This document shows positions 26,957-33,883 of a stretch of DNA of 52,578 bases, one piece after another. The position numbers and the translations under genes were made by a program. Numbering within the stretch: position 1 is the stretch's first letter; each line of letters opens with the position of its first letter. The notes under the pieces were generated by a model. That model was not told the DNA's origin and ran no database searches. It worked only from the letters and a program-made list of their open reading frames with translations. The stretch comes from Halococcus hamelinensis 100A6 (GTDB taxonomy: Archaea; Halobacteriota; Halobacteria; Halobacteriales; Halococcaceae). The stretch is from assembly GCF_000336675.1 (NCBI RefSeq), contig NZ_AOMB01000017.1:1-52578 (forward strand), written 5' to 3'.

Positions 26957-28234
26957 CTACGGCCGCTCGCCCGCGATCCGGAGCACCGACTCGGTCAGCA
27001 CGTCGACACCGATGTCGATCGAGCGTTCGTCGACGTCGAAGGTCGCGGTGTGGTGGCCGCCGGGGTGGTCCGTGCCGATGCAGACGTAGGCCGCGCGCCC
27101 GCCACGCTCCTGGACCCGGTGCATCAGGTAGGTCGCGTCCTCGCTCCCGCCGAGGCCGTCGCGTTCGGTGGGGGTGTCGACCCCCTCCGTTTCGGTCGAA
27201 GCCTCGTGGACGATCCCGACGAGTTCGGCGTCGCTGGTCGCGCTCGGCGCGCCGCCCACCGTCGAGAGACCGAGCGAGCAGCCGTGCATCTCGGCGGCGG
27301 ATTCGAGCACCTGTTCGGCGCGTTCGCGCATGTACTCCATGAGCTCCGTCGTCCGACCGCGGACCTCGCCCTCGATGAACGCCTCCTCTGGGATGATGTT
27401 GGTCGCGCTCCCGCCGCCGACCATTCCGGCGTTGATCCGGGTGGGGCCGTCGTCGTTTCGGGGGATGGCGTAGAGGTTCTGGATGGCGGTGGCCATCGCC
27501 TGAACGGCGTTCTTCCCCTCCTGGGGGTCGGCCCCGGCGTGGGCGGGTTCGCCCGAGAAGTCGGCTCGGAAGTGGTGAACAGCGAGGAAGTCGTCGATGC
27601 CCGCGACGACCTCGCCGGTGGGGTGGTCGAGGCCGATGTGGACGGCGAGGAGGTAGTCCACGTCGTCGAGGTGGCCGCTCTCGGCGATCGGTTTCGCGCC
27701 CGCGACCATCTCCTCGCCGGGCTGGAAGACGACCTTGAACGTCCCCTGGAAGTCGCTCTCGGCGATCGTTTCGAGTACGCCGATGCCCATCGTGGCGTGC
27801 GAGTCGTGGCCGCAGGCGTGCATCGCGCCGGTCTCCGAACGAAAGCCCTCCTTCGTGGGGACGTGCTCGTCCGAACGGGACTCCTCGCGGAGTAAGCCGT
27901 CGATATCGACCCGGAGCGCGACGGTCGGGCCCTCGCCACGTTCGAGGACCGCTATCGCGCCGGTGTAGCCCCCCGCCAGTTCTTCGAGGACGTCCTCGCG
28001 CGCGCCGGCGGCGCGGGCCCGTTCGTACCACGTCGCGAGTTCCTCGTCGTCCGGGACGGCGGTGCGCTCGCCGTCGGCGAGGATCGCGGGCCCGACGAGG
28101 AGTTCGTCGACGCCGATGCGTTCGCACTCCTCGACGATCCGGCTGGTGGTGTAGAACTCGCGCCAGGCGGGTTCGGGGTGACGGTGGAGGTCGCGGCGGA
28201 GGTCGACGAGTCGGTCGTGGCGGGCCCGTTGCAT
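26957..28234 (-). CDS. M20-family amidohydrolase, AbgA-like
   Basis: 425 residues, M20D metallopeptidase/amidohydrolase. The zinc-binding motif HACGHDSH, GEEM (catalytic Glu) and VHIGLDHPTGE are present. The N-terminal RRDLHRHPEPAWREF and the inserted DDEELATWYERARAAGA segment resemble AbgA, the p-aminobenzoyl-glutamate hydrolase subunit, more than indole-acetyl hydrolases. Cleavage of an N-acyl amino acid such as p-aminobenzoyl-glutamate is plausible but not certain. It runs opposite to the small membrane protein and follows the S10 paralogue gene by 38 bp. Confidence 0.85.
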   Translation of the reverse strand: MQRARHDRLVDLRRDLHRHPEPAWREFYTTSRIVEECERIGVDELLVGPAILADGERTAVPDDEELATWYERARAAGAREDVLEELAGGYTGAIAVLERGEGPTVALRVDIDGLLREESRSDEHVPTKEGFRSETGAMHACGHDSHATMGIGVLETIAESDFQGTFKVVFQPGEEMVAGAKPIAESGHLDDVDYLLAVHIGLDHPTGEVVAGIDDFLAVHHFRADFSGEPAHAGADPQEGKNAVQAMATAIQNLYAIPRNDDGPTRINAGMVGGGSATNIIPEEAFIEGEVRGRTTELMEYMRERAEQVLESAAEMHGCSLGLSTVGGAPSATSDAELVGIVHEASTETEGVDTPTERDGLGGSEDATYLMHRVQERGGRAAYVCIGTDHPGGHHTATFDVDERSIDIGVDVLTESVLRIAGERP

Positions 28235-28272
28235 GGAGGGGTGTGGCGACCGCCGGTGACGTAACCTTTCGG

Positions 28273-28599
28273 TCAGCGACCGGCCTGTCGGACCTGGTCG
28301 ATCTCGACCTCGACGTGGACGCTTGCGGGGAACTCGCCGCCGGCGACGCTCCGGGCGAACTCGTCGTGGCCGACGATCTCGATGGTGCGCGAGTAGACGG
28401 TGTAGGTCCAGTCGGCGAACCGGTCGCCGGTCGCGGAGAGGCGTTTCGACTGCGGGGCGTGCTGCTCGTGGGGCTGGCCCGAGTGCGGGCCGCCGAACTC
28501 GACGCCCTTCCGCGAGGCGGTCTCCTTGATGTCCTCGACCACACGGTCGAGCGCGCCCCGGTCGCCGCTCGTGAGTTCGAGTGTCGTGACGAAAGGCAT
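28273..28599 (-). CDS. S10-domain protein, paralogue of ribosomal uS10
   Basis: 108 residues. The fold signature of uS10 is present: MPFVTTLELTSGDRGALD at the start, GPHSGQPHEQHAP in the loop, FADWTYTVYSRTIEIVG and the C-terminal ASVHVEVEIDQV. It differs strongly from canonical haloarchaeal uS10 (which opens MQQARVRL...), so this is a second, divergent copy. It may be a ribosome accessory or stress-related factor. The ATG at 28599 starts exactly at the domain. It precedes the M20 hydrolase gene by 38 bp on the same strand. Confidence 0.8.
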   Translation of the reverse strand: MPFVTTLELTSGDRGALDRVVEDIKETASRKGVEFGGPHSGQPHEQHAPQSKRLSATGDRFADWTYTVYSRTIEIVGHDEFARSVAGGEFPASVHVEVEIDQVRQAGR

Positions 28600-28659
28600 T
28601 GGTGTCCGTTCTGGGTGGTCACGCACCAAAAACGCACCCGTGTGGAGTCGTCGGTGAAC

Positions 28660-28945
28660 GTCGGTCGCGGTTAGCGGTGCGGTGGTGGGTGGAAGCGGTG
28701 CGGATGCTGGGGCGCGCGCTCGCGGTCGCGTGCGAACAAAGTGAGCACCGACCGCGGACACTGTGCGAGGTCTGCGCGAGCGTAGCGAGTGCAGGCTCGG
28801 CAGAGCGAAGCTCTGCCGGTGGATGAGTGAAGTGAGCGAACGCGAACGGAGCGAATCGGTTGGGGAGGCGTGTGGCGGTCGCGGGGCGGTTGCGGAGGCG
28901 GAGCGAGAAGTCGTTGTGCCGCGAGCGACCGATGGGAGCGAGCGG
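28660..28945 (+). repeat. Intergenic repeat element, copy D (longest)
   Basis: Opens near GGTTAGCGGTGCGGTGG and closes with GTGCCGCGAGCGACC followed by GGGAGCGAGC, matching copy A's ends. It carries the core TCGGTTGGGGAGGCGTGTGG shared with copies B and C, and its left half (GCGCGCTCGCGGTCG, ACACTGTGCGAGG) matches copy C in reverse. An internal perfect hairpin CGGCAGAGC-GAA-GCTCTGCCG occupies 28798-28818 and is absent from the other copies. It fills most of the 385-bp gap (28600-28984); Ser/Arg-rich ORFs across it are not genes. Confidence 0.75.
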
Positions 28946-28984
28946 GCCGAGGAATCCCCGAACGACAGCAAAAAGGTGGAGTTC

Positions 28985-29329
28985 TCAGATGAAGTCGCGA
29001 ACCTCGGAGTACCACATCTCGTGGTGGTCGAGGGCGTCGACGCGGCGGGCGATCTCGGTCGCGAGGACGTGCCAGCACAGCTGGTCGGGGTCGTCGGGCG
29101 CGAGGTTGTAGGCCGAATCCTTGCAGGTACAGCTGCCGTCCTCGACGACGTACTCGTCGGAGTGGCCCACGACGACGGTGAAGTCGAGGTACTCCTTGAT
29201 GCGGCGCTCGGCGACCGCCTCCATGGCGCGCACCCCACGGTCGCCGTGGACTTCGATGATCCGCCCGGCGATCTCGGAGTCGAGTTCGCCGCGCTCGTCG
29301 AGCGCGTGTCGCCAGGACGTCGCCGTCAC
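28985..29329 (-). CDS. SWIM zinc-finger protein
   Basis: About 114 residues. GSCTCKDSAYNLAPDDPDQLCWH is the SWIM zinc finger (CxC...CxH), preceded by a helical domain (RAMEAVAERRIKEYLDFTVVVGHSDEYVV). SWIM fingers mediate DNA or protein interactions in many haloarchaeal proteins with no further assigned role. The frame extends to 29413, but the GTG at 29329 gives an N-terminus without the odd basic extension. It lies directly after repeat copy D and runs opposite to it. Confidence 0.78.
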   Translation of the reverse strand: MTATSWRHALDERGELDSEIAGRIIEVHGDRGVRAMEAVAERRIKEYLDFTVVVGHSDEYVVEDGSCTCKDSAYNLAPDDPDQLCWHVLATEIARRVDALDHHEMWYSEVRDFI

Positions 29330-29471
29330 GACGGGGGGTTCGGACCGACCGATGAAAACCCGTTCGGTAGCCGGACCGACGACTCCGCAGGTACGCGATT
29401 CGGTCGATACCACTGGACGCGGCGAACCCGTTCCCTCGTCGGTCGGTTCGAGTCGCTCCTCGGAGCGGTCG

Positions 29472-30188
29472 CTACGACCCGTCGAGGATTTCGGCGAACC
29501 AGCCCGCCCGCTGGGCCACCCGGCGGGCGGTTTCGAGCCGGGTTCCTCCCCGGATCGGCGTGTTGAACCACTGACGAACGAGCCAGCGGCGTGATTTGCC
29601 GTCGAGCCGCCACCACTGGACGTCCGCCCGGCCGAGGAGGTAGGACTTCCGCAGGAAGTGTCGAAACGACTCGACGTAGGTGTGCTCGACGACGAGTTCG
29701 GGGACGTACTGGATCGTGTAGGCCTCGGCGATCCGCTCGGCGAGTTCGGACTCCTCGTGGCCCCAGCCGAAGGTCTCCGCGTCGAACCCGCCGACGTCGT
29801 CGAGCACCTCGCGTCGGATCGCCATGTTGCACCCCGGCAGCATGTCGGTGGGTTTCGACTCGTCGCCCTGGTCGTACCACGGGAGGTCGAGGTCGGAAAA
29901 TGGGGCGTCTGCGGGCTGGAAGACCCGACCGGCGACGGCGGGGTAGGCGTCGAGCGCGACGCTCGCGACCCGGAGGTAGCCCCGGCAGGGCACCGAGTCG
30001 TCGTCGAGGAAGACGAGCTTCTCGCCGCGTGCCCGCTCGATCCCGACGTTGCGGGCGTGGGCCGCGCCCCCCTCGCGCTGGATCAGGACCTCGTAATTCT
30101 CGAAGTCGTCGCCGGCGAGCCGTGCGGCCGATAGTACGTCGGCGTCATCCGAAAGCGTCGTCGGAATGATGACGCTTATCTCGACCAT
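29472..30188 (-). CDS. Family 2 glycosyltransferase
   Basis: 238 residues, inverting GT-A enzyme with Rossmann start EISVIIPTTL, donor-binding GERARGEKLVFLDDDSVP (DxD), and the LPGCNMAIRREVLDDVGGFDAETFGWGHEESELAERI acceptor region typical of GT2. It has no transmembrane helix, so it works in the cytosol or at the membrane face. It likely adds one sugar in glycan or glycolipid assembly. The start is the ATG at 30188. It is divergent from the membrane GT2 gene, which begins about 150 bp away. Confidence 0.9.
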   Translation of the reverse strand: MVEISVIIPTTLSDDADVLSAARLAGDDFENYEVLIQREGGAAHARNVGIERARGEKLVFLDDDSVPCRGYLRVASVALDAYPAVAGRVFQPADAPFSDLDLPWYDQGDESKPTDMLPGCNMAIRREVLDDVGGFDAETFGWGHEESELAERIAEAYTIQYVPELVVEHTYVESFRHFLRKSYLLGRADVQWWRLDGKSRRWLVRQWFNTPIRGGTRLETARRVAQRAGWFAEILDGS

Positions 30189-30304
30189 GGAGCGGGTTCC
30201 GCGAGCCATCGGAAAGCCCTTCCGACGCGGCGGTGTCGGTCAGTTATGACCGCGAATCGACCCGCTGATACGCGATACCGTCCCGAAGGGCGCGCGGTCA
30301 GCAA

Positions 30305-30312
30305 CACTTAAT
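30305..30312 (+). promoter_or_regulatory. TATA-like box deciding the start of the membrane GT2 gene
   Basis: CACTTAAT lies 26-33 bp before the ATG at 30338 and only touches the earlier ATG at 30311. This favours 30338 as the real start in a leaderless transcript. Confidence 0.5.
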
Positions 30313-30337
30313 GTTCCCGCTGGCGTCGCCGGTTCCA

Positions 30338-31498
30338 ATGGCCGGATCGGTCGCCGCAGCGGTGCCTGTGGTGCTCTCAATCATCCTTTGGAGTATTGCC
30401 CTGCTTTCGGTCTGCTCCATCGCCTACTGGACGTACCTCGTTCTGTTCGTCGTTCGGGGCTCCGAGTATCCCGAGATCGAGCACGACCCGAGCGAGGTCC
30501 AGGTCAGGATACTGACCGTCGATTCACCCCAGATCATCCAAAAGAGCGTCAGCGCCATCCCCGATACCGTCACCGACCGCCACGTGATCGCCGAGGAGCC
30601 GATGGATATCCAAGGGGCGACGGTCCACGTGGTGCCCGACAGCTTCGACTCCGAGGCGATCCGGAAGGGCCGGGCGCTCGAATGGGCCCGGCAGAACGTC
30701 CCCTGCGGGAAGGAGTTCGTGCTCTACCTCGACGAGGACAGCCTCATGTCGGATTTCGAGGGGGTTCCCGACGCGGACGTGGTCCAGTTTCGGGAGCGCC
30801 CCCGCCGGAGCCGGTCGTGGCTCTCCTACCTCGCTGAGGTCTTCCGGATGGGCTTTCAGATCGAACAGCGCGCCTTCCCCTCGCTCTCGGTGCCGCTCTA
30901 CGCCTGGGGCGGTGGGATCGCGATCCGGTCCGACCTCGAAAACCGCGTCACGTGGGACCACCACACCATGATCGAGGACACCGCGTTCGTCTGGAACGCG
31001 GTGGCGATGGACGGCGCGGTCGACTTCGACATGGCGCGCACCAAGTTCGACACCCAGGCCCCGCCGACGATCCGCGCGATGGTGAGCCAGCGAAGCCGGT
31101 GGCTCGCGGGCTCGCAGTCCGAGAGCGACCTCCTCCCGCTGCCCTATCACCTCCTCACGACCGTCCGCAACCTCGCGTGGGCGCTCTCGCCCGCGGTGCC
31201 GTTCCTGACGCTCGTCCCGCTGCTCGTCCCCGGAACCATCCTCTTCGAGACCGCCTTCCAGGTCCTCTCGGTTCTGGTCTTCAGCTTCGTCGTGGTCTGG
31301 TCGATCGCGGGGGCCGCCTACTACGACAGGTCGGTCCTCCTCGGGCTGGTCGTGGTGGTGTTGTCGCCGCTCGTCAGCCTGCTCCACTCCTTCGGCGCGT
31401 TCGTGGGACTGGTCGCCCCGCCGAACGACTTCTCGGTCACCCGGAAGATCAGCCCCGAACACGTCGATACGCCCGAGCGCGAGGTCGAGGGCGACTGA
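30338..31498 (+). CDS. Membrane-bound family 2 glycosyltransferase (egghead/BcsA-like)
   Basis: 386 residues. A hydrophobic start (VAAAVPVVLSIILWSIALLSVC) anchors the enzyme, a cytosolic GT-A core follows with LYLDEDS (DxD metal site), an ED catalytic acid in TMIEDTAF, and SQRSRWLAG, the QxxRW acceptor-binding motif. Four or more C-terminal transmembrane helices follow. This is the layout of processive or lipid-linked GT2 synthases and of the egghead beta-mannosyltransferase family. It probably makes or extends a polysaccharide or glycolipid at the membrane. GH26 genes follow directly. The alternative ATG at 30311 adds nine residues and overlaps the TATA box. Confidence 0.86.
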   Translation: MAGSVAAAVPVVLSIILWSIALLSVCSIAYWTYLVLFVVRGSEYPEIEHDPSEVQVRILTVDSPQIIQKSVSAIPDTVTDRHVIAEEPMDIQGATVHVVPDSFDSEAIRKGRALEWARQNVPCGKEFVLYLDEDSLMSDFEGVPDADVVQFRERPRRSRSWLSYLAEVFRMGFQIEQRAFPSLSVPLYAWGGGIAIRSDLENRVTWDHHTMIEDTAFVWNAVAMDGAVDFDMARTKFDTQAPPTIRAMVSQRSRWLAGSQSESDLLPLPYHLLTTVRNLAWALSPAVPFLTLVPLLVPGTILFETAFQVLSVLVFSFVVVWSIAGAAYYDRSVLLGLVVVVLSPLVSLLHSFGAFVGLVAPPNDFSVTRKISPEHVDTPEREVEGD

Positions 31499-31553
31499 CA
31501 CCGACGACCCTGGCCCTACGCCGGTCGGCGGTTCCCGCCGCGCACATCACAAT

Positions 31554-31560
31554 GTTTAAC
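31554..31560 (+). promoter_or_regulatory. TATA-like box for the exported GH26 gene
   Basis: GTTTAAC lies about 30 bp before the ATG at 31589 in an AT-rich patch, so the GH26 gene probably has its own promoter despite the 90-bp proximity to the GT2 gene. Confidence 0.55.
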
Positions 31561-31588
31561 CGAAATCGCGGCAAGGACCGACCGATAG

Positions 31589-32857
31589 ATGGATCGTCGG
31601 ACCTTTCTTCGTACGACAGGGGTGGCCGGCGTCGCCGGGCTGGCGGGCTGTTCGACCCCGTTCGACCCCGTATCGACCCCGGAGTCGTCGAACGGCAGCG
31701 GGAGCGCGCCGACCGACGGGTCGGGTGCCGGAAACGAGAGCACGGGCGAGCTCACCGAAACCCCCGAAGCGCCCCAGACCCGCTCCGGCGCGGCGCTCAC
31801 GGGCGTCTTCCCCGGCAGCGAGGAGCTCGACGCGACCCTCGCGGCGTACTCGAACTGGATCTCGAAAAAGCCCGCCGTCGTACTGCTGTTCGTCGACGCG
31901 CTCGCCGAGCCGAGCGCGACGCAGGGCTTCGTCGACGACGCGTTGACGCAGGTCTGGAACGCGGGCCACGTGCCCATGATATCCTGGCAGCCGCTGGTCA
32001 ACGACGGGCAGACCCCGGAGGCGGTCGAGCGCCGGATCGCCAACGGCGACTACGACGAACAGATCCGGGCGTGGGCGATGGCCCTCGACGACTGGGCGCA
32101 TCCGCGCGGCGGGCAGACGCGGGGTCGGCGGTTCTACTTCCGACCGGCCCACGAGATGAACGGCAACTGGTTCCCCTGGAGCGCGGTGGATTCGACTCGC
32201 GTCCCCGCCAGTACGGACAGCCCGGGCACCGCCGACGACTACGTCTCGATGTGGCGACACGTTCATCAACTGTTCGGGAACACCGACCTCGACGAGACGA
32301 ACGTCCAGTGGATGTGGTCGCCGAACGCCGACGAGCCGAGCAACAGCGTCCGCGCCGAGCAGTACTACCCCGGCGACGAGTTCGTCGACTGGGTCGGCCT
32401 CGACGGCTTCAACTTCGGCGGGAGTCAGGAGTACGACAACGGCGCGACGTCGAACTGGCGCTCCCCGAACGGGATCTTCGGGCCGATGCTCCAGCGAATA
32501 CGCGACCTCACCGACAAGCCGGTGGCGCTGGCCGAGTTCGCCTCCTCGTCGGTGCCCGAGTCCGGCGACGGCCACCAGCCCCAGCAGAAGGCCGAGTGGA
32601 TCCAGGACGTCTTCGACTACGTCGCCGAGAACGACATCAAGATGGCCTGCTGGTTCAACGTCGACCAGGAGGGCCAGGACGAGTCCGACTGGGCGGTCTT
32701 CGGCGGCGCACGCGGCACCTCCCAGGTCACGATCGGCGGGACGCAGTACCCCGTCTACGAGGCCTACAACCGGTCGGTTTCGGGCTCGGACTACCTCGGC
32801 GCGCTGCCGGACTACCCGCCGCTGCTGACCGACGACGAGTTCGCCGGGGACTTCTGA
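31589..32857 (+). CDS. Exported GH26 glycoside hydrolase (beta-mannanase family), Tat lipoprotein
   Basis: 422 residues. The N-terminus has a twin-arginine signal RRTFLRTTG followed by lipobox LAGC (Cys21), predicting Tat export and lipid anchoring outside the cell. A Ser/Thr/Gly-rich linker leads to a GH26 catalytic domain. The acid/base is Glu189 in RPAHEMNGNWFPW and the nucleophile is Glu316 in ALAEFASSS; the VGLDGFNFG strand is also typical. The family contains beta-1,4-mannanases and some 1,3/1,4-glucanases. It lies downstream of the membrane GT2 gene, convergent with a second GH26 gene. Confidence 0.9.
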   Translation: MDRRTFLRTTGVAGVAGLAGCSTPFDPVSTPESSNGSGSAPTDGSGAGNESTGELTETPEAPQTRSGAALTGVFPGSEELDATLAAYSNWISKKPAVVLLFVDALAEPSATQGFVDDALTQVWNAGHVPMISWQPLVNDGQTPEAVERRIANGDYDEQIRAWAMALDDWAHPRGGQTRGRRFYFRPAHEMNGNWFPWSAVDSTRVPASTDSPGTADDYVSMWRHVHQLFGNTDLDETNVQWMWSPNADEPSNSVRAEQYYPGDEFVDWVGLDGFNFGGSQEYDNGATSNWRSPNGIFGPMLQRIRDLTDKPVALAEFASSSVPESGDGHQPQQKAEWIQDVFDYVAENDIKMACWFNVDQEGQDESDWAVFGGARGTSQVTIGGTQYPVYEAYNRSVSGSDYLGALPDYPPLLTDDEFAGDF

Positions 32858-32887
32858 ACCGCCGACTCGTCGCACCCTTTCACCTCG

Positions 32888-33883
32888 TCACTCGCCGCGA
32901 AACGCCGCGTCACCGACGAACGCGGTTTCGTCAGCCACGGCCCGGTTTTCGATGTCCGTCGTCGCGTCGCGGTAGGCGGCGTACCGCCAGTGTGGAACCG
33001 CCCCGTCGGGCGATTCCGTCCCCCGCGCCCCGTCGAACGCCGCCCAGTCGGTCTCCTTGTCCTCGTTGAACCAGCACCGGAGCGCCACGCGGTCGTCGAG
33101 GTAGTCGAACGCGTCGCGTATCCACGCCGCCTTCCTCGACGGGTCGTGACCCGCGGCCGTCACCGACGAGCTCGCGACCTCCGGCACGCAGACCGGTTTC
33201 GCGGCGAGCGCGTCGAGCCGGTCGAGCATTTCGTCGAAGACCGCCGCCGGCGAGGCCCATCCCGACCACTCCTGGCTCGTCCCCCAGTTGAAGCCGTCGA
33301 GGCCGACCCAGTCGACGAACTCGTCGCCGGGATAACACGCCTCGGCCGTGTGGGAGCCGACGTCGACGTGGTTGACACACCAGACCCACTGGAGGCGCTC
33401 GGCCGGGAGGTCGTCCATCCGGTCGTGGACGCGCCGCCACATCGCGACGTACTCCTCCGGCGTTGTGTTCCCGCCCGCGGGGGCCCAGGGATACCAGTCC
33501 CCGTTCATCTCGTGACCGGGCCGGAGGAAGCACCGGCGGTCGTCGGCGGTCCCGAGCGCCCCGTCGGGCCCCGCGAGCCACCCGCGAAGTCGCTCCGCCC
33601 ACGCGTCGAGGTAGTCGTCGTACGCCCCTTCGGCGATCCGCGCTGCGATGTCCGGCGGCGTCGAATCCGGGGTTGGGGTGTAGGGCTCCCAGGTGAGCAG
33701 CGGCACGCGGCCCGCGTTCCATACCTCGGGAAGCAGCTGGTCGAAGACGTGGTCGAGCCCGTCGGGATCCCACGGCACGAAGACGACGTGGACGGCGTGG
33801 CGCGCGCCGGCCCACTCGTCCATCGCGTCGAGGACGGCGATCCTGTCCGGTCGGACGTAGGCCCCACACAGCGTCGTGGTCAT
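32888..33883 (-). CDS. Cytosolic GH26 glycoside hydrolase paralogue
   Basis: 331 residues, clearly homologous to the neighbouring GH26 but without any signal peptide or lipobox. Acid/base Glu125 in RPGHEMNGDWYPW and nucleophile Glu235 in VPEVASSSV are intact, as is VGLDGFNWGTSQEWSG. It could act on oligosaccharides inside the cell, or it could use an unrecognised export route. The open frame extends far upstream only as the antisense of the RFC gene; the ATG at 33883 starts at the domain (MTTTLCGAYVRPD). Its stop lies 30 bp from the stop of the exported copy. Confidence 0.88.
   Translation of the reverse strand: MTTTLCGAYVRPDRIAVLDAMDEWAGARHAVHVVFVPWDPDGLDHVFDQLLPEVWNAGRVPLLTWEPYTPTPDSTPPDIAARIAEGAYDDYLDAWAERLRGWLAGPDGALGTADDRRCFLRPGHEMNGDWYPWAPAGGNTTPEEYVAMWRRVHDRMDDLPAERLQWVWCVNHVDVGSHTAEACYPGDEFVDWVGLDGFNWGTSQEWSGWASPAAVFDEMLDRLDALAAKPVCVPEVASSSVTAAGHDPSRKAAWIRDAFDYLDDRVALRCWFNEDKETDWAAFDGARGTESPDGAVPHWRYAAYRDATTDIENRAVADETAFVGDAAFRGE

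Follow-up and report, generated by a model that had tools for sequence, protein, structure and literature searches.

Bacterial cellulose synthesis brings together BcsA, a membrane glycosyltransferase of family 2 (GT2), and the endo-hydrolase BcsZ, a member of glycoside hydrolase (GH) family 8. RiGT2 of Romboutsia ilealis and BgsBA of Sinorhizobium meliloti are GT2 synthases of (1,3;1,4)-β-glucan with the D, D, D, QxxRW signature; RiGT2 also carries the gating-loop motif FxVTxK and a PilZ domain, and BgsA binds cyclic di-GMP through a C-terminal peptide (PMC10374906). A lichenase such as CtLic26A (endoglucanase H, GH26) would find its natural substrate in their product. In archaea, the Pyrobaculum calidifontis mannosyltransferase PcManGT, a small membrane GT2, is summarized as a minimal cellulose-synthase-like fold acting in N-glycan biosynthesis (Gandini 2020, as cited in PMC8993221), and exopolysaccharide genes are known from Haloarcula hispanica (HAH_1662/HAH_1667, PMC5467301). 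Here we examine a locus of Halococcus hamelinensis 100A6 (GCF_000336675.1; genome of 3.4 Mb in 46 contigs) in which GT2b, a membrane GT2 sharing the signature of these synthases and the gating motif of RiGT2, adjoins a predicted β-glucan endo-hydrolase, GH26a, much as BcsA is paired with BcsZ. A second GT2 (GT2a) and a second GH26 (GH26b) flank the pair. The window analyzed comprises positions 1–52,578 of contig NZ_AOMB01000017.1. As an initial annotation made from the sequence had supposed, such a locus appears to be new to haloarchaea: we found no paper on a GT2–GH26 locus in this group in the open-access literature, where absence is not proof. We propose, with moderate confidence, that the locus encodes a minimal β-glucan synthase and a dedicated endo-glucanase, which together would convert UDP-glucose into a trimmed mixed-linkage or related β-1,3/1,4-glucan.

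GT2b and the GH26 hydrolases

GT2b matches PF13632 at 48.8 bits (cut-off 27), with QRSRW at residues 260–264. LDED, ED, QRxRW and F-x-V-T-x-K are all invariant in alignment A1 of its homologues. Across 126 homologues (see below), the DxD-type, ED and QxxRW motifs occur together in 124 and FxVTxK in 116; the 10 that lack FxVTxK are all unlinked to a hydrolase. This motif forms the gating loop of BcsA and plant CesA, in which mutants show that it is required for activity, whereas hyaluronan and chitin synthases have WGTR/KG at the same position (PMC10592267). BcsA is the best PDB profile match of GT2b (E 0.007). The predicted GT2b model (predicted local distance difference test (pLDDT) 83.7) aligned with BcsA (4p00) at Z 22.2 over 351 residues (root-mean-square deviation 3.8), with the hyaluronan synthase of Chlorella virus at Z 23.6, and with PcManGT at Z 21.1 over 304 residues. 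A hyaluronan- or chitin-synthase type was considered for GT2b and rejected: the hyaluronan synthase fold is equally similar, but the presence of FxVTxK instead of WGTR/KG speaks against it. Judged by motifs and predicted structure, the catalytic and gating parts of GT2b probably work like those of a cellulose synthase, yet the protein as a whole is not a BcsA.

The two hydrolases, 41% identical to each other, match PF02156 at 48.6 (GH26a) and 51.9 bits (GH26b; cut-off 20.2). A profile built from 31 haloarchaeal GH26 sequences scored the lichenase CtLic26A at 172 bits and mannanases at no more than 71 bits. CtLic26A was also the best fold match of the predicted GH26a model (pLDDT 83.6, E 3e-23), followed by the mixed-linkage xylanase AlXyn26A (E 2e-12). 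It is thus the nearest solved relative of both enzymes by sequence, profile and fold, although identities are only 24–26% and the likeness is one of sequence and fold. Residues E189 and E316 of GH26a are invariant across the 31 sequences and align with E109/E222 of CtLic26A. As an internal control, another haloarchaeal GH26 with a full Pfam score (L095; loci are cited by L numbers) had a mannanase as its best match (159 bits), and CtLic26A was not listed. No high-scoring mannanase-like haloarchaeal GH26 had a listed GT2b within 3 kb.

The N-terminus of GH26a, MDRRTFLRTTGVAGVAGLAGC, combines a twin-arginine motif with a lipobox, and this signal (RRTFLR...GLAGC) is retained in congeners and in g3; models of twin-arginine translocation (Tat) signals are borderline (PF10518 scores 19 bits where 22.7 are required, and TIGR01409 just reaches its threshold of 16.7). 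GH26b begins with MTTTLCGAYVRPDR, has no signal peptide there or in frame upstream, and is by inference cytosolic. Both assignments agree with the initial annotation of one exported Tat lipoprotein and one signal-less enzyme. Signal-less GH26 partners of GT2b also occur in families f4, f5 and f12; the partners in L216, L235 and L236 cluster with GH26b-type enzymes, and this type is the direct partner of GT2b in f5 and f12. The H. hamelinensis genome contains two more GH26 genes without GT2b (L092 7060–8091 and L093 5716–7302), the latter preceded by repeated N-terminal segments (GSASG-like) common to the open reading frame before it.

Linkage of GT2b to GH26 or GH16 across the class

Of the 391 genomes of the class, 126 contained homologues of GT2b (counted at E below 1e-60), 41 contained GH26 and 43 GH16. 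Across 247 genomes of the phylum, the matches listed came only from the window's order. We retrieved 129 GT2b genes together with the flanking DNA, predicted the genes there and clustered the neighbors with no family preselected. The commonest neighbor was GH26 (18 loci, 13 of them at +1 on the same strand; 16 in an unbiased count, as L235 and L236 had been fetched for their GH26). GH16 ranked second with 12 entries, or 10 distinct loci once a genome and a double locus counted twice were corrected for, 9 of them at +1 on the same strand. Clusters ranking below these two mostly reflected genus-level synteny. Outside the window's genus, 7 of 34 GH26 and 10 of 60 GH16 genes lay <3 kb from a listed GT2b, against expectations of 0.04 and 0.08 that treat genes as independent, which is not fully true. 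This non-independence is answered by the GT2b tree (126 rows), in which starred branches force at least five changes of the GH26 link and at least four of the GH16 link, and one well-supported clade includes both partners (L152, L205 and L225 with GH26, L184 with GH16). Linked GH26 occurs in families f1, f4, f5, f12 and f14, separately in four families besides the window's own, and linked GH16 in f5, f6 and f7. Salinirubellus salinus has GT4, a membrane protein, GT2b and GH26 in this order, the last two overlapping by 8 bp. Chance adjacency of GT2b and hydrolases was rejected on the neighbor clustering and the distance statistic.

Endo-β-1,3-glucanase and laminarinase are the nearest matches of the GH16 partners, and lichenases rank lower. 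EIDxxE was present in all nine where it was read, and nearly all linked GH16s carry a twin-arginine motif and a cysteine, as GH26a does. In Haloterrigena salina (L100 902–1543), a GH16 fragment without the catalytic EIDxxE directly follows GT2b, and a second, intact GH16 lies 2 kb further on.

Within the genus, GT2b and GH26a are adjacent on the same strand with a gap of 71–159 bp in eight of nine congeners, the ninth (L067) being interrupted by a contig end. GT2a and GT2b are divergently oriented in all nine (outside the genus GT2a is not beside GT2b), and GH26b follows in seven. Another genus of the family (L071, L072) has the GT2b–GH26a pair on the same strand without GT2a and GH26b at that place. 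Conservation of all four genes is therefore narrower than that of the pair, since GT2a and GH26b hold this position in the genus alone. The initial annotation had likened the pair to BcsA/BcsZ, a likeness that a gene order conserved in no relative would have refuted. The likeness is supported by the order kept in congeners, the recurrence of the pair in other families and FxVTxK in GT2b; the refuting case did not arise, the order being kept widely for the pair and, for all four genes, only inside the genus.

Some GT2b homologues stand apart from these patterns. In two related genomes (L084 7157–8407 and L086 6734–7849), the aligned GT2b has an in-frame stop (position 212 and 38, respectively) and the GH26 beside it is intact, which reflects either decay or, for L086, a later start. 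In ten genomes of one genus (L083, L085, L164 and others), a GT2b homologue without a hydrolase lies directly downstream of SMC and an apparent ScpA.

Proposed function and competing explanations

To our knowledge, β-1,3/1,4-type glucan is the sole substrate common to CtLic26A-like GH26 and glucanase-like GH16 enzymes. This shared substrate and the cellulose-type gating motif of the synthase therefore point to a β-glucan synthase that comes with an endo-glucanase of its own. GT2b, in the cytoplasmic membrane, would polymerize UDP-glucose processively into a β-glucan, most likely (1,3;1,4)-mixed-linkage or a related β-1,3/1,4-glucan, and hand it over to the cell surface. There GH26a, predicted to be lipid-anchored outside the membrane, would cut or trim the chains as BcsZ does with cellulose, and signal-less GH26b may remove cytosolic chains or recycle them. 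In other haloarchaea, GH16, an unrelated family of retaining β-glucanases, would take on this role next to a synthase of the same family. The locus hydrolase thus differs from BcsZ both in family (GH26 or GH16 in place of GH8) and in its likely lipid anchor on an archaeal surface. In its most specific form, a haloarchaeal mixed-linkage β-glucan made by a stripped-down enzyme of 395 residues whose endo-β-glucanase has been repeatedly exchanged between GH26 and GH16, the proposal is tentative.

Several observations weigh against this interpretation. The sequence similarity between GT2b and BcsA is weak, and the hyaluronan synthase and PcManGT (Z 23.6 and 21) fit the GT2b model about as well as BcsA. 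At roughly half the length of BcsA, GT2b has only about 3–4 hydrophobic segments by family-averaged hydropathy, fewer than BcsA. Pfam detected no PilZ domain in a protein that ends at residue 395, 16 residues past FxVTxK, nor was a C-terminal peptide like that of BgsA recognized. No BcsB-like gene was found among the recurrent GT2b neighbors, a genome-wide search for BcsB not having been made. Given the few hydrophobic segments, the lack of PilZ and of a recognized BcsB partner, a translocation channel within the GT2b monomer is doubtful, though an oligomer might form one. Without a signal, GH26b would have unclear access to an exported polymer. Most GT2b homologues (98/126, including one clade of 44) have no GH26 or GH16 within 1.5 kb, and galactanases, too, belong to GH16.

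The few membrane segments and the likeness to PcManGT leave room for a non-processive role, which we regard as the main rival, possible though rather unlikely. GT2b would then extend a lipid-linked precursor (N-glycan, glycolipid or heteropolysaccharide) by a single sugar or a short stretch, and the GH26 or GH16 enzyme would trim that heteroglycan. The fold alignment over 304 residues fits this explanation, as does the setting of the pairs in L084 and L086, the second linked family of loci, within a heteropolysaccharide-like cluster (UDP-sugar dehydrogenase-like gene, epimerase, FemAB and GT4). However, PcManGT aligns only as far as GT2b residue 373, short of FxVTxK, and an endo-acting enzyme that recurs as the partner is easier to reconcile with a polymer containing an internal stretch of β-glucan than with a short glycan. 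The initial annotation had instead suggested a β-mannan-like product of GT2b, which the two GH26 enzymes would cut as mannanases. Although the majority of characterized GH26 enzymes are mannanases and plant CslA mannan synthases are cellulose-synthase-like too, this was dropped as the leading idea on the GH26 subfamily evidence (profile, fold and the L095 contrast) and is now improbable: the GH26s of the locus are CtLic26A-like, the mannanase-like L095 enzyme is not beside GT2b, and GH16, for which we know of no mannan cleavage, stands in for GH26 at other loci.

Both GH26 and GH16 are retaining families, and the GH8 enzyme BcsZ is inverting. The alternation of two different retaining families at one place, together with the lipobox of GH26a, which would anchor it next to the likely exit site, would suit an exported enzyme acting mainly as a transglycosylase, which would attach newly made glucan to other polymers of the surface. 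No feature examined separates a transglycosylase from a hydrolase, though, and signal-less GH26b does not fit, which makes this quite improbable. Very unlikely, and already disfavored, is the explanation that the hydrolases serve feeding on environmental β-glucan and stand beside the GT2 by chance. There are haloarchaea known to grow on polysaccharides (PMC9726719, PMC10963439), and the two further GH26 genes elsewhere in the genome would agree with such a diet. Against it, independent linkage to GT2b recurs far above expectation, and no transporter or sugar-catabolism gene is among the recurrent GT2b neighbors.

Locus features, bacterial parallels and significance

The four open reading frames lie where the initial annotation placed them, and their Pfam matches and QRSRW support its gene calls (Table 1). 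For all four, the ratio of non-synonymous to synonymous substitution rates (dN/dS) is 0.15–0.25 against the nearest congener and 0.23–0.50 against a more distant one; the genes are real and under purifying selection. Ordinary neighbors adjoin the locus at 26957–29413, namely an M20-type amidohydrolase and a small SWIM-zinc-finger-like protein, whose gene is syntenic in the nearest congener.

Table 1. Positions of the locus features within the window.
Feature	Position	Strand	Assignment
GT2a	29472..30188 (open reading frame 29472..30209; likelier start 30188)	-	Soluble family-2 glycosyltransferase; Pfam GT2 families
GT2b	30311..31498	+	Membrane GT2; PF13632; 395 aa; LDED, ED, QRSRW, FSVTRK
FSVTRK (FxVTxK) gating-loop codons	31430..31447	+	GT2b residues 374–379; from alignment, motif as defined in PMC10592267 and PMC10374906
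TTTAA box	31554..31558	+	Possibly GH26a's own promoter, ~30 nt 5' of its ATG; from sequence only
GH26a	31589..32857	+	Predicted Tat lipoprotein; CtLic26A-like GH26; acid/base E189, nucleophile E316
GH26b	32888..33883	-	CtLic26A-like GH26 without signal peptide

A bacterial likeness exists on plasmids of Deinococcus taeanensis and Curtobacterium sp. TC1, where a GT2 stands beside a divergent GH26; we found no description of these loci. Their GT2s belong to other types that lack FxVTxK, that of Curtobacterium having WGTR. On the Deinococcus plasmid (NZ_CP083458, L241 2945–7026), GH16, a membrane protein of GGDEF-like appearance, GT2 and GH26 form one apparent operon, which joins in a single bacterial locus both hydrolase families that alternate in haloarchaea. 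On the Curtobacterium plasmid (NZ_CP081962, L245 2684–7255), the WGTR-type GT2 is accompanied by genes for a GH26-like hydrolase and for a UDP-glucose/GDP-mannose dehydrogenase; gene ends overlap, and the group looks like a small exopolysaccharide operon.

We know of no experimentally shown archaeal β-glucan synthase. If the proposal is true, cellulose-synthase-type β-glucan synthesis reaches archaea, and the very small GT2b may reveal the least machinery for building such a polymer. The exchange of the two families would let genomics point at the linkage of the polymer, since no glucan but a β-1,3/1,4-type one fits GH26 and GH16 alike. Little is known about haloarchaeal surface polysaccharides and biofilms, for which the GT2b–hydrolase pair would then be a candidate that can be tested in genetically tractable relatives.

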